Of a DNA stretch of 64,000 nucleotides, positions 47,307-51,328 are shown in pieces. Under the pieces are notes generated by a model, which made no database searches, was not told the origin of the DNA, and saw only the letters and a list, made by a program, of their open reading frames with translations. Both the position numbers and the translations under genes were made by a program. Origin of the DNA: Jiangella mangrovi (lineage in GTDB: Bacteria; Actinomycetota; Actinomycetes; Jiangellales; Jiangellaceae); contig NZ_JACHMM010000001.1 of assembly GCF_014204975.1 (NCBI RefSeq), forward strand, positions 2,790,001 to 2,854,000. Reading direction: 5' to 3'. How positions within the stretch are numbered: position 1 is the first letter of the stretch; the number at the start of each line of letters is the position of its first letter.

Positions 47307-48391
47307 ACGCGGGGGTCCAGTCGGTGCGCGAGACCTTCGACGTCCCCCTCGCCGGCCTCACCACCCTGCGGCTCGGCGGCCCGGCGAAGCGTGTCGTCGA
47401 GGCGACCACCGAGGCCGAGCTCATCGCCCTGGTCCGCGACGGCGACGAGCGCGGTGAGCCGGTGCTGCTGGTCGGCGGCGGCTCGAACCTCGTCATCGGC
47501 GACTCCGGGTTCGACGGGACGGCGGTGCGGGTCGCCACCCGCGGCATCGACGTCGACGCCAGCGCCTCCTGCGACAGCGACGCCCTGGCGGCCTGCGGCG
47601 GCGTGCTGCTGACGGCGGCCGCCGGCGAGCCGTGGGACGACCTCGTCGCCTACACCGTCGCGAACGAGTGGCCCGGCCTCGAGGCGCTCTCCGGCATCCC
47701 AGGCCTGGTCGGCGCCACCCCCATGCAGAACGTCGGCGCCTACGGGCAAGAGGTGCGCCAGACGGTCTGGCAGGTGCGCACGTACGACCGCCAGGACCGC
47801 CGTGTCCGCACTTTCGCCAACGCCGACTGCGGCTTCGCCTACCGCGACAGCCGGTTCAAGGGCACCGACCGCTATGTGATCCTGACCGTCAGCTACCAGC
47901 TGCGCGAGGGGAGCCTCGGCATGCCGGTGGCCTACGCCGAGCTGGCTCGCCGGCTGGGCGTCGAGGTGGGTGGGCGGGCCCCGCTGGCCTCGGTGCGGGC
48001 GGCCGTGCTGGCCCTGCGCGCCGGCAAGGGCATGGTCCTCGACGCCGGCGACCACGACACCTGGAGCGCCGGGTCGTTCTTCACCAACCCGGTCCTCACC
48101 GAGGCCCAGGCCGCCGCCCTGCCCGCGGACGCACCGCGGTTCCCGGCCGGCGACGGCCTGGTCAAGTCCAGCGCGGCCTGGCTGATCGAGCGGGCCGGGT
48201 TCGGCCGCGGCTACTCCGGCGGCCGTGGCGGCGTCTCGCTCTCGACCAAGCACACGCTGGCCCTGACCAACCGGGGCGAGGCCAGCACCGCCGACCTGCT
48301 CGGCCTCGCCCGCGAGGTGCGCGACGGCGTGCGCTCCGCCTTCGGCGTCGAGCTGGCGCCGGAGCCCACGCTCGTCGGCTGCACCCTCTAG
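47303..48391 (+). CDS. murB: UDP-N-acetylenolpyruvoylglucosamine reductase (MurB)
   Basis: FAD enzyme that reduces UDP-GlcNAc-enolpyruvate to UDP-MurNAc in peptidoglycan synthesis. The 362 residues include LAGLTTLRLGGPAKRVVEA, the PP-loop-like LLVGGGSNLVIGDSGFDG, LSGIPGLVGATPMQNVGAYGQEV and VLDAGDHDTWSAGSFFTNPVL carrying the catalytic Ser, and end in PEPTLVGCTL with the catalytic Glu. It is type I by length and the presence of the YxxxR insert (AYRDSRFK). The GTG at 47303 overlaps the hadB stop. Its last 4 bp overlap the end of the convergent MFS gene. Confidence 0.96.
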   Translation: MNAGVQSVRETFDVPLAGLTTLRLGGPAKRVVEATTEAELIALVRDGDERGEPVLLVGGGSNLVIGDSGFDGTAVRVATRGIDVDASASCDSDALAACGGVLLTAAAGEPWDDLVAYTVANEWPGLEALSGIPGLVGATPMQNVGAYGQEVRQTVWQVRTYDRQDRRVRTFANADCGFAYRDSRFKGTDRYVILTVSYQLREGSLGMPVAYAELARRLGVEVGGRAPLASVRAAVLALRAGKGMVLDAGDHDTWSAGSFFTNPVLTEAQAAALPADAPRFPAGDGLVKSSAAWLIERAGFGRGYSGGRGGVSLSTKHTLALTNRGEASTADLLGLAREVRDGVRSAFGVELAPEPTLVGCTL

Positions 48392-49803
48392 ACCCGCTCC
48401 AGCGCGGGCGCCGGCGAGCGCCGTCGGCGACGCAGGCCCGAGCCGGTGACCAGCACGCCGATGACCGCGCCGGTCAGCGGGACGAGCAGCGCGGTCCGGA
48501 AGGTGTTCAGGTCCGAGCCGCCCGGGCCGCTCCCGGCCACCACGGCCGCCGTCACGACAGCCAGCCCGAGCGCGCCGCCGAACTGGAACGACGACGTCAG
48601 CACACCGCTGGCCAGGCCCTGCTCCTCCTCGGCGACGCCGTCGGTGGCGGCGATGGTGAGTGGTCCGTAGGCGAGCGCGAACGCCAGGCTGAGCACGAGG
48701 AACGCCGGGAGCATGGCCGCGTACGTCCAGTCCGCGCCCACGCGCAGGAACAGGGTGTAGGCGACGGCGGCGAGGACCAGCCCGCCGACGATCACCGTCG
48801 CGTTGCCGAACCGGCGAACCAGGATCGGCGTCAGCGTCGGCGCCAGGATCGCGTCCAGGCCGAGGACCATCAGCGCGAGCCCGGTCTCCGTCTCCGACCA
48901 GCCGCGGAACTCCTGCAGGTACAGCACGGCGATGAACTGGAACCCGACGAACCCGCCGACCAGCATCATCGCGCCGATGTTGGCCCGGACCAGGGGAGCG
49001 GAGCGCAGCAGGCCGAGGCGCAGCAGCGGGGTCCGCGACCGGCGCTCGATCGCCACGAACGCCACCAGCAGCGCGACCCCCGCTGCCGCCGTCGTCGCCG
49101 TCGAGCCGATCGGCACCTCCGGCAGCATGACGACGGTGTAGACGAGCAGCAGCATCGCGCCGGTGAGGCTCAGCGTGCCGCCGAGGTCGTACCCGCCGGC
49201 GGTCCGCGCGGCCGGCACGTCGTGCGGGATCAGCCGCACCGCCGCGACCAGGATGAGCGCCGCCATGATGACGGGGGCGAAGAACACCCAGCGCCAGTCG
49301 ATCGCCGTCAGCAGGCCGCCGGTGACCATGCCGAGCGAGAAGCCGCCGGCCGCGATGCCGGCGTAGATCAGCAGCGCGCGGTTGCGCTGCGGTCCCTCGG
49401 GGAACGTCGTCGTGATGATCGACAGCCCGGCCGGCGTCATGAACGCCGCCGCGATGCCGGTGACGAACCGGGCGGCGATCAGCATCCAGCCGTCGGTCGC
49501 CAGGCCGCCGAGGCCGGAGAAGAGCAGGAAGACGACGAGCCAGAGAACGAACATCCGCCGCCGTCCCAGCAGGTCGGCCGCGCGCCCGCCGAGCAGCACG
49601 AACCCGCCGTAGCCGAGCACGTAGGCGCTCACCACCCACTGCAGGGACGACGTGGACATGCCGAGGTCGGCGCGGATCGAGGGGAGGGCGACGCCCATCA
49701 TCGAGACGTCGATGCCCTCGAGGAAGATCGCGCTGCTCAGCACGATCAGGACGGCCCAGCCTCGGGAGGTGAGCCGGTCGGACGGGGCCGGTGGGGGTGC
49801 CAC
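48388..49803 (-). CDS. DHA2-family MFS drug exporter (EmrB/QacA type)
   Basis: A 471-residue exporter with 14 predicted helices. The DHA2 signatures are LSSAIFLEGIDVSMMGVALPSIRADLGMSTSSLQWVVSAYVLGYGGFVLLGGRAADLLGRRRMFV and FVTGIAAAFMTPAGLSIITTTFPEGPQRNRALLIYAGIAAGGFSLGMVTGGLLT. The substrate is unknown. The GTG at 49803 has AAGGAGT upstream. The divergent HxlR gene starts 81 bp away and is the likely regulator. No helix is missing. Confidence 0.9.
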   Translation of the reverse strand: MAPPPAPSDRLTSRGWAVLIVLSSAIFLEGIDVSMMGVALPSIRADLGMSTSSLQWVVSAYVLGYGGFVLLGGRAADLLGRRRMFVLWLVVFLLFSGLGGLATDGWMLIAARFVTGIAAAFMTPAGLSIITTTFPEGPQRNRALLIYAGIAAGGFSLGMVTGGLLTAIDWRWVFFAPVIMAALILVAAVRLIPHDVPAARTAGGYDLGGTLSLTGAMLLLVYTVVMLPEVPIGSTATTAAAGVALLVAFVAIERRSRTPLLRLGLLRSAPLVRANIGAMMLVGGFVGFQFIAVLYLQEFRGWSETETGLALMVLGLDAILAPTLTPILVRRFGNATVIVGGLVLAAVAYTLFLRVGADWTYAAMLPAFLVLSLAFALAYGPLTIAATDGVAEEEQGLASGVLTSSFQFGGALGLAVVTAAVVAGSGPGGSDLNTFRTALLVPLTGAVIGVLVTGSGLRRRRRSPAPALERV

Positions 49804-49833
49804 GGGCGGACTCCTTCATGGTTATCGAACAGA

Positions 49834-49934
49834 GGGTCGGTTACTTCTTGTGCCTGATCGCATCTTCCGGCACCATGGCTGACCATGGAAGAAGGCACTT
49901 CGAAGTCACCCGGGTACACGGCGGTAACCGACCC
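49834..49934. promoter_or_regulatory. Widely spaced perfect inverted repeat around the HxlR start
   Basis: GGGTCGGTTAC (49834-49844) in the MFS/HxlR intergenic region and GTAACCGACCC (49924-49934) inside the HxlR coding sequence are perfect 11-bp inverted copies, 79 bp apart. They could be two operator half-sites for HxlR dimers with looping. The second copy encodes VTDP and might also be constrained by protein sequence. Confidence 0.4.
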
Positions 49935-50328
49935 CGAGTACTGCCAGAAGTGGGACCCGCGCGAGGACTGCGAGGTCCGGCAGATCCTCGACCGCATCGC
50001 CGACAAGTGGTCGCTGCTGGTCATCGCCCTGCTCGACCTGCGCAGCCTGCGGTTCACCGAGCTGCGACGCGAGATCGACGGCATCAGCCAGCGCATGCTG
50101 ACGGTCACCCTGCGCCAGCTCGAGCGCGACGGCCTCGTGCGCCGCACCGTTCACCCCGTCGTGCCGCCCCGTGTCGACTACGAGCTGACTCCGCTGGGCG
50201 CCACGCTGCACGACACCATCGAGGCGCTGGTCAACTGGACCGAGGCGCACCGGCAGGAGATCGCTTCCGCCCGCGACGACTACGACCGCCGCGCCGCTGC
50301 CGCTGCCGGAGAGCTCGTCGACGCCTGA
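49885..50328 (+). CDS. HxlR-family winged-helix transcriptional regulator
   Basis: A 147-residue DNA-binding protein with the HxlR fold: CEVRQILDRIADKWSLLVIALLDLRSLRFTELRREIDGISQRMLTVTLRQLERDGLVRRTVHPVVPPRVDYELTPLGATL. One N-terminal Cys (YCQKWDPREDCE has two) may be redox-active, as in some HxlR proteins such as QorR/YodB, but this is speculative. It is divergent from a DHA2 exporter, the usual arrangement for a dedicated repressor. Confidence 0.92.
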   Translation: MEEGTSKSPGYTAVTDPEYCQKWDPREDCEVRQILDRIADKWSLLVIALLDLRSLRFTELRREIDGISQRMLTVTLRQLERDGLVRRTVHPVVPPRVDYELTPLGATLHDTIEALVNWTEAHRQEIASARDDYDRRAAAAAGELVDA

Positions 50329-50342
50329 GCGCGAATTCCGGG

Positions 50343-50371
50343 TGCACAAGGGAGCGGGGATGTGGCAGACT
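50343..50371 (+). promoter_or_regulatory. Promoter of the poly-Cys leader/PIG-L transcript (leaderless)
   Basis: TGCACA (50343-50348) and CAGACT (50366-50371) are separated by 17 bp. Transcription would begin at about 50379-50380, that is at the first base of the GTG of the leader peptide. Leaderless starts of this kind are common in actinobacteria. The -35 matches 4 of 6 consensus positions. Confidence 0.5.
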
Positions 50372-50379
50372 CTGCGCTC

Positions 50380-50451
50380 GTGATCAGCATGCCGCTCCGC
50401 ACCGCCGTCCCGGCGGTCGTCGGCATGCCCTGCTGTTGTCGCTGTCGCTGA
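50380..50451 (+). CDS. Poly-cysteine leader peptide upstream of the PIG-L deacetylase gene
   Basis: A 23-codon frame from the GTG at 50380 to the TGA at 50449-50451, ending PCCCRCR: four Cys within the last six residues. It fits the leaderless polycysteine small ORFs described in mycobacteria, which stall in the absence of charged Cys-tRNA and control operons of cysteine and sulfur metabolism. The deacetylase gene starts 73 bp later, and the intervening sequence can form a CCGGC/GCCGG stem (50474-50478 with 50494-50498). That this peptide senses cysteine and controls the deacetylase is inference. It could be a chance frame, but four Cys codons next to a stop are improbable. Confidence 0.55.
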   Translation: MISMPLRTAVPAVVGMPCCCRCR

Positions 50452-50524
50452 ACCTCTCCCGCGACCCGACCCTCCGGCGGGCCAGGCTGTCAGGCCGGCC
50501 GCCCTCTTCCCACAGCAGGCAGGA

Positions 50525-51328
50525 ATGTTCTCGAACCACTCGTCCCTCAGCGGGCGCACCGTCCTCGTCCTCCACGCGCACCCCGACGACGAGGCCATCT
50601 TCACCGGCGTGACGCTGCGCCGCCTGGCCGACGCCGGCGCGCGGGTCGTGCTGGTCACGGCCACGCTGGGCGAGCTGGGCGAGGTGCACGTGCCGCTGGC
50701 GCCCGGCGAGACCATGGCGCAGCGCCGGGTCGCCGAGCTGGAGGCCGCGGCTTCCTTGCTGGGCGTGTCGCGGCTGGTCCTGCTGGGCGCGCGCGACTCC
50801 GGGCTGCCCGGCGCCGCCGACAACGTCCACCCCGACGCGCTGGCCGCGGCCGACCCCGCGCGCGTGGCGCGGCGCATCGCCGCCCTGATCGAGTCCGAGG
50901 GCGCCGAGGCTCTCGTCCACGACGACGGCCGCGGCATCTACGGCCACCCCGACCACCTGGCCGCGCACCGCATCGGCGCCGCGGCCGCCCGGCTGACCGG
51001 CGTCGTGGCCTACGAGTCCACGGTCGACCGCGACCACCTGCACGACCGCGCCACCCGCTCCCACCTCATCCACGCCGCCGCCGAGGCGACCGGTCTGCCG
51101 TTCGGGGTGCCGTCCGGCGAGGTCGCGCTGCGCATCGACGGCTCCGCCGCCGAGGTGAAGGTCAAGCGGGCCGCCATCGGCGTGCACGCCAGCCAGGTCA
51201 GCCCCGACTCCCTCGGCCACGCCGGCTTCGACGAGGCCTACGGCTACGAGTGGTACCTGCGATCGGGCGCTGGTTCTGGGATCTTGGACGAGCTGGCCGT
51301 GCCGGCCGTGGTCGGTGCCCCGGCGTAG
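50525..51328 (+). CDS. PIG-L family zinc-dependent deacetylase (MshB/LmbE-like)
   Basis: A 267-residue N-acetyl-sugar deacetylase. The zinc site AHPDDEAIFTGVTLRRLADAGARVVLVTATLGE (His19, Asp22) is near the N-terminus and GRGIYGHPDHLAAHRIG (His144) in the middle. The plan is that of MshB/Mca, which act in mycothiol synthesis and detoxification. Whether this is the mycothiol deacetylase or a relative with another substrate cannot be decided here, since the C-terminal region is shorter than in MshB (about 300). The upstream poly-Cys leader suggests a link to thiol metabolism. The ATG at 50525 has AGGCAGGA before it. Confidence 0.85.
   Translation: MFSNHSSLSGRTVLVLHAHPDDEAIFTGVTLRRLADAGARVVLVTATLGELGEVHVPLAPGETMAQRRVAELEAAASLLGVSRLVLLGARDSGLPGAADNVHPDALAAADPARVARRIAALIESEGAEALVHDDGRGIYGHPDHLAAHRIGAAAARLTGVVAYESTVDRDHLHDRATRSHLIHAAAEATGLPFGVPSGEVALRIDGSAAEVKVKRAAIGVHASQVSPDSLGHAGFDEAYGYEWYLRSGAGSGILDELAVPAVVGAPA

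Follow-up and report, generated by a model that had tools for sequence, protein, structure and literature searches.

A conserved polycysteine leader, probably a cysteine-responsive attenuator, upstream of a PIG-L deacetylase gene in Jiangella mangrovi and other actinobacteria

A short open reading frame (ORF) ending in a polycysteine tail is conserved upstream of a PIG-L deacetylase gene in Jiangella mangrovi and its relatives. Judging from sequence comparison and RNA modeling, we consider it probable that this leaderless short ORF exerts cysteine-responsive translational attenuation on the PIG-L gene. A leaderless, cysteine-responsive attenuator had been proposed in an earlier, sequence-only reading of the locus, and the proposal appears well supported by conservation, by codon choice, and by a predicted pairing that would sequester the Shine-Dalgarno (SD) sequence of the deacetylase gene. 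The locus lies in a 64,000-nt stretch of the J. mangrovi genome (NZ_JACHMM010000001.1, positions 2,790,001 to 2,854,000; here, the window), the numbering of which is used for its features (Table 1).

Table 1. Positions in the window of the leader, its putative control elements, and the target gene
Feature	Positions	Strand	Basis or remark
Weak candidate -35, TGCACA	50343..50348	+	By eye; 4/6 to TTGACA, 17-nt spacer
Extended -10, TG-G-CAGACT	50363..50371	+	8 nt before GTG; kept in relatives
Polycysteine short ORF, MISMPLRTAVPAVVGMPCCCRCR then stop, GTG start	50380..50451	+	Read in sequence; putatively leaderless
Hairpin A within short ORF	50387..50428	+	Predicted fold
Stem B left arm, CCTGCTGT	50429..50436	+	MFE and centroid prediction
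Cys codons 18-20 (TGC TGT TGT)	50431..50439	+	Read in sequence
Cys codon 22 (TGT)	50443..50445	+	Read in sequence
Stem B right arm, ACAGCAGG, containing deacetylase SD	50512..50519	+	MFE prediction
MshB-fold PIG-L/LmbE-like deacetylase	50525..51328	+	Pfam 84.6 bits; HPDD and HPDH metal motif kept

The short ORF and its conservation

The 23-codon GTG frame described in the sequence-only reading, with a PCCCRCR tail before TGA, is present exactly at 50380-50451 (GTG ATC AGC ... CCC TGC TGT TGT CGC TGT CGC TGA), between an HxlR-type regulator gene (49885-50328) and the PIG-L gene (50525-51328). The pattern TGYTGYTGYCGNNNNCGNTGA has a single match in the 7.16-Mb single-contig genome, at the short ORF (forward, 1; reverse, 0; reversed-pattern control, 0). 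The gene order in Jiangella is murB, then a divergent MFS efflux gene and the HxlR regulator gene (48388-50328), then the leader; in Phytoactinopolyspora, murB apparently lies directly upstream of the leader (its C terminus was judged by eye).

The same reading had placed a -35/-10 pair so that +1 would fall on the GTG, and this claim needs correcting. No canonical -35/-10 pair was found in a consensus scan of 50300-50600, and the -35-like hexamer showed no conservation in the relatives inspected; the conserved element is an extended -10, 8 nt before the GTG. Across the window and the 57 loci that passed the strict test described below, the end of the -10 lies 6 to 8 nt from the start codon (5 to 8 nt being permitted by the test), the start codon is GTG in 48 and ATG in 10, and an SD-like motif upstream of the short ORF occurs in 2 of 58. 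The -10 hexamer begins with C in 55 of these 58, and in 49 a single G separates it from the TG; neither feature is a requirement of the test. We infer that the short ORF is leaderless, with transcription starting at or next to the GTG.

Conservation was assessed in the best 80 of 253 PIG-L relatives found in genome contigs, among which the closest six at the PIG-L locus are Jiangella species (86 to 91% protein identity). The strict test called for an ATG or GTG frame of 12 to 45 codons no more than 400 nt upstream, three or more Cys among the 10 C-terminal residues, and an extended -10 (TG, and a hexamer with its A and T) ending 5 to 8 nt before the start. In addition to the window, 57 of the 80 loci passed, and one more leader, slightly beyond the 400-nt range (L058), brings the total to 58. 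Hand reading added seven weaker but recognizable leaders (L059, L062, L064, L066, L073, L076, and L081). Four loci (L037, L042, L065, and L080) have too little upstream sequence to judge. The leader is thus present in 65 of 76 assessable loci and absent in 11 (L033, L038, L070, L074, L075, L078, L082, and L085 to L088). As a control, 430-nt tiles from both strands of the 80 loci were scanned; 1 of 2,213 matched, and this was the orthologous L058 leader itself, leaving no unrelated match.

Leaders were found in Jiangella, Haloactinopolyspora, Phytoactinopolyspora, Pseudonocardia, Actinocatenispora, Frankiales metagenome-assembled genomes (MAGs), and Kineosporiaceae. We use the term Jiangellales type for the first three genera together with a similar MAG locus, L019 (14 loci and the window; n = 15). 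An RNA model derived from these 15 leaders detected exactly one copy per genome in 20 of 22 genomes from the family to which the window belongs; the two genomes without a copy are 75% and 81% complete. The leader had no match in Rfam up to E = 1.

The peptide itself drifts. In the leaders of the strict-test loci, the middle and N-terminal part varies and the Cys tail and promoter are retained, with three to eight Cys per leader and several tail layouts (CCCRCR, CCCCR, and CCPGCCRCC). Codon choice is distinctive: the leaders use TGT and TGC in a ratio of 197:103 (300 codons) versus 65:619 (684 codons) in the long ORFs of the same loci (n = 237), which is an excess of TGT with a Fisher P of 2.5e-72, kinship ignored.

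Predicted RNA pairing and the level of control

In the mechanism that we favor, RNA polymerase would start at or next to the GTG, and ribosomes would load straight onto the 5' end and translate the 23 codons. When cysteinyl-tRNA is plentiful, ribosomes would clear the Cys codons, terminate, and depart, and the Cys-codon RNA would then pair with ACAGCAGG and so mask the PIG-L ribosome-binding site. Under cysteine scarcity, a ribosome would presumably stall on the UGC/UGU run and keep this arm open, and the deacetylase would be made. We infer the cysteine response itself, the gene probably being switched on at cysteine shortage.

The leader in the window is predicted to be more stable than any of 200 shuffled sequences (minimum free energy [MFE] z, -3.3). 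A stem that can form before the deacetylase gene had been noted earlier, and such a spacer hairpin is indeed predicted; the telling pairings are instead hairpin A and stem B. All 15 Jiangellales-type leaders are predicted to form hairpin A (z versus shuffles, -0.2 to -7.9), the arms of which differ among lineages but covary (matched versus permuted z, -4.4; 0/2,000; kinship ignored). For stem B, the window fold joins CCUGCUGU to ACAGCAGG by eight Watson-Crick pairs in a neighboring register. The spacer between the short ORF and the deacetylase gene is 61 to 73 nt long in the 15 leaders (73 nt in the window), and its sole fully invariant block, CAGCAGG (15/15), lies right before the deacetylase start. 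Over six pairs, all 90 cells of the alignment pair between the Cys-codon RNA and CAGCAGG when U-G is counted, with U-G at one pair in 10 sequences and at another in 2. RNAalifold returned for the Jiangellales alignment only a six-pair helix between the Cys tract and CAGCAG, without compensatory changes and in a register one codon off the window MFE because the tract is repetitive.

Other measures speak against stem B. None of the six pairs has a compensatory change, and matched Cys tracts and start regions of the Jiangellales type paired no better than permuted ones (z, -0.9; 362/2,000). Because the Cys tract is repetitive, the helix slid by -3 columns still pairs in 86.7% of cells. Duplexes between Cys tract and spacer were no stronger in energy than those with dinucleotide-shuffled spacers (mean z, -0.42; 1 of 15 below -1.5); 14 of the 15 leaders have their best duplex on the Cys tract, L045 favoring another site.

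We also modeled a ribosome on the leader with a partition-function approach. The predicted openness of CAGCAGG was 0.04 in the free RNA, 0.06 when the ribosome occupied the first codons, and 0.48 when it occupied the first Cys codon in the tail region, the rise being seen in 15 of 15 leaders. In the model, this change on stalling is the behavior of a translational attenuator. Occupancy of the stop codon by a ribosome is likewise predicted to expose the start region, so that control must depend on dwell time. In the 43 leaders outside the Jiangellales type, the modeled change was small (0.44 to 0.51).

The Pseudonocardia leaders usually have a CCPGCC tail followed by further Cys. Before the PIG-L start, we saw by eye no SD-like motif and instead GTCTGCGATCACC or similar. 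In L022, L030, L036, L044, and other Pseudonocardia loci, GCGATCACC(TC) stands directly before this start and has complementarity to GTGATCG, with which the short ORF begins; we take this element to resemble the 3' end of 16S rRNA. Permutation tests on 34 sequences (kinship ignored) indicated covariation of the short-ORF 5' end with the PIG-L start region (z, -3.6) and of the Cys tract with the region after the stop codon (z, -3.8; 0/2,000). A covariation of the Cys codons with the pre-start region that had been suspected by eye found no support (z, +0.8). In the permutation tests as a whole, control pairs (coding start, mid-spacer, etc.) ranged from -0.9 to +3.2. For the Pseudonocardia alignment, RNAalifold predicted a local hairpin and a five-pair helix between the Cys tract and the spacer.

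These data also bear on a mechanism with the same Cys sensor in which the output would be transcription elongation, through a Rho-dependent terminator or a U-less hairpin terminator before the deacetylase gene. Spacer hairpins are predicted among the leader folds listed, the covariation of Cys tract and post-stop region recurs more weakly in Jiangellales (z, -2.7; 12/2,000), and the Cys tract and the start region lack covariation in the permutation test, all of which would suit such a mechanism. However, a scan of 50300-50600 found no intrinsic terminator with a U run, and the conserved complement of the Jiangellales Cys codons is the SD sequence itself. We regard control of elongation as unlikely, and attenuation of translation as the better reading of the leader.

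The target gene and its neighborhood

The target has the metal motif HXDD plus H that an excerpt of PMC4101496 gives for LmbE-like proteins, with H19, D21, D22, and H144 invariant among 16 aligned sequences. Its predicted structure superimposes on MshB (4ewl) with a Z score of 23.6 (rmsd, 3.0; 235 aligned; 31% identity), and its fold and HPDD/HPDH motif are shared with MshB (TIGR03445) and Mca (TIGR03446). Around the first motif, the target family keeps HPDDE-x-IFTG, whereas the MshB and Mca of the same genome have HPDDE-S-IGTG and HPDDE-S-SKGA, respectively. By sequence, the target is a member of a distinct PIG-L family and a third MshB/Mca-like paralogue.

The sequence-only reading had linked the deacetylase to mycothiol synthesis, in which case the target would be the biosynthetic deacetylase MshB, governed by the cysteine supply of its pathway. 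Both the nearest fold and the nearest NCBIfam model are indeed those of MshB, and the substrates of MshB and Mca overlap according to the same excerpt of PMC4101496. The scores speak against this assignment: the window protein reaches 118.2 bits with the MshB model (cutoff, 224.35) and 78.3 bits with the Mca model (cutoff, 277.15), and all 10 orthologues tested also fall below the MshB cutoff (nine at 85 to 128 bits and one under the listing threshold). Moreover, a separate MshB (360.8 bits, at 0.56 Mb) and a separate Mca (474.5 bits, at 0.68 Mb) are encoded elsewhere in the genome, and no such leader was found at its mshB, mca, or mshA. An MshB role is improbable, and the gene should not be named mshB. 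It is more likely that the target serves cysteine supply or thiol turnover rather than the committed MshB step, and a cysteine-linked function is plausible.

Elsewhere in the J. mangrovi genome, similar leaders were lacking at all 7 PIG-L loci examined among the 9 others and at two genes of the PAPS reductase family, and none of the PIG-L type was found within 600 nt of two cysK-like genes; an unlinked Cys-containing frame lies 1.27 kb upstream of mca. A sulfite reductase gene is preceded (L107:795-881 and 778-825) by what is probably a leaderless leader peptide, MLSVIPLLLVSRRHVDYGRMDSMLCLAF, which belongs to a different class and has TGGCACGAT located 7 nt upstream of its ATG. A Cys-rich stretch of 15 codons, MARCSTCCPSFLCCW, overlaps this peptide in another frame and lacks a recognizable -10.

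Downstream of the target, the next gene is on the opposite strand in the window and in most Jiangellales-type loci (adenosine deaminase in the window and in L016), and no inverted repeat was found after the deacetylase gene. Pseudonocardia loci often have lnt and a family-2 glycosyltransferase gene downstream of the PIG-L gene in the same orientation (BLAST groups of 28 and 29 loci; both genes are named in L051 [L051:2983-6231]), and the leader may therefore govern a longer operon there. A dienelactone-hydrolase-like gene follows the PIG-L gene in five Frankiales loci, two of which carry the name. A Kineosporiaceae MAG (L076:3001-4939) has a single Cys-tailed leader, the PIG-L gene, and then, about 250 nt downstream on the same strand, cysK (456.9 bits to TIGR01139).

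Could the leader instead encode a small, Cys-rich peptide with a trans-acting role, e.g., in metal or redox balance? The number of Cys per leader would suit such a role, but the variable N-terminal half and tail layout, the location of the frame in cis upstream of the PIG-L gene, the codon bias, and the RNA complementarity make it very improbable. A chance open frame is ruled out by the conservation of the full leader across orders; the bare motif TGYTGYTGYCGNTRA does occur six times in the genome, versus four times for the reversed control, but none of the six matches reads as a promoter-linked short ORF.

Known leader peptides and significance

Cysteine-responsive control in Mycobacterium smegmatis, in which stalled ribosomes expose a hidden ribosome-binding site, was reportedly described by Canestrari in 2020. 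Such an attenuator is how we read the PIG-L leader as well. In mycobacteria, leaderless Cys-rich short ORFs upstream of cysA2, Rv0485, and nirA have been put forward as attenuators (Shell 2015; excerpt of PMC4633059), and such ORFs and cysteine-dependent attenuation are treated in excerpts of PMC4633059, PMC9031893, PMC9094748, and PMC13236596, the last of which describes translation attenuation in general as the freeing of a hidden ribosome-binding site by stalled ribosomes. The PIG-L leader has in common with the mycobacterial attenuators its leaderless geometry, its C-terminal Cys cluster, and its site upstream of a gene or operon. It differs in its target, a PIG-L family gene rather than the three genes named in the excerpt of PMC4633059, and in its hosts, i.e., Jiangellales, Pseudonocardia, Frankiales, and Kineosporiaceae rather than mycobacteria. 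In the structural features compared by sequence and model, the Jiangellales-type leader matches the mycobacterial design; the Pseudonocardia leader departs from it in its CCPGCC-type tail and in its predicted pairings.

For Streptomyces lividans, the consulted portion of PMC8079986 lists eight amino acid leader peptides, several of them leaderless and without a clear terminator. Like the PIG-L leader, they are short and contain codons of the sensed amino acid; none of the eight in that portion is assigned to cysteine, and none precedes a PIG-L gene. The metL leader, assigned to methionine (Table 4 of the same source), ends in ARCMCRRMCAF, which contains as many Cys as Met (three each), and may be a cysteine sensor.

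Within the portions of the literature searched, with the target list of the main 2020 study outside the comparison, a PIG-L gene and a Cys-rich leader were not joined; as far as these portions go, the target family and the host orders are new. A broader scenario, which we offer tentatively and think less likely than not to hold in full, is that a third family of MshB/Mca-type amidases across actinobacterial orders releases cysteine, or precursors of it, from stores of mycothiol or another N-acyl-cysteine compound at times of low cysteinyl-tRNA and that the attenuator was rebuilt at least twice with different RNA pairings (CAGCAGG in Jiangellales and CCPGCC in Pseudonocardia). Attenuation of translation by polycysteine leaders would extend to further actinobacterial orders and to a target outside those named in the portions of the literature compared, and the leader would point to cysteine supply as a clue to the function of a conserved PIG-L family that has MshB as its closest curated model but scores below the cutoff of that model.
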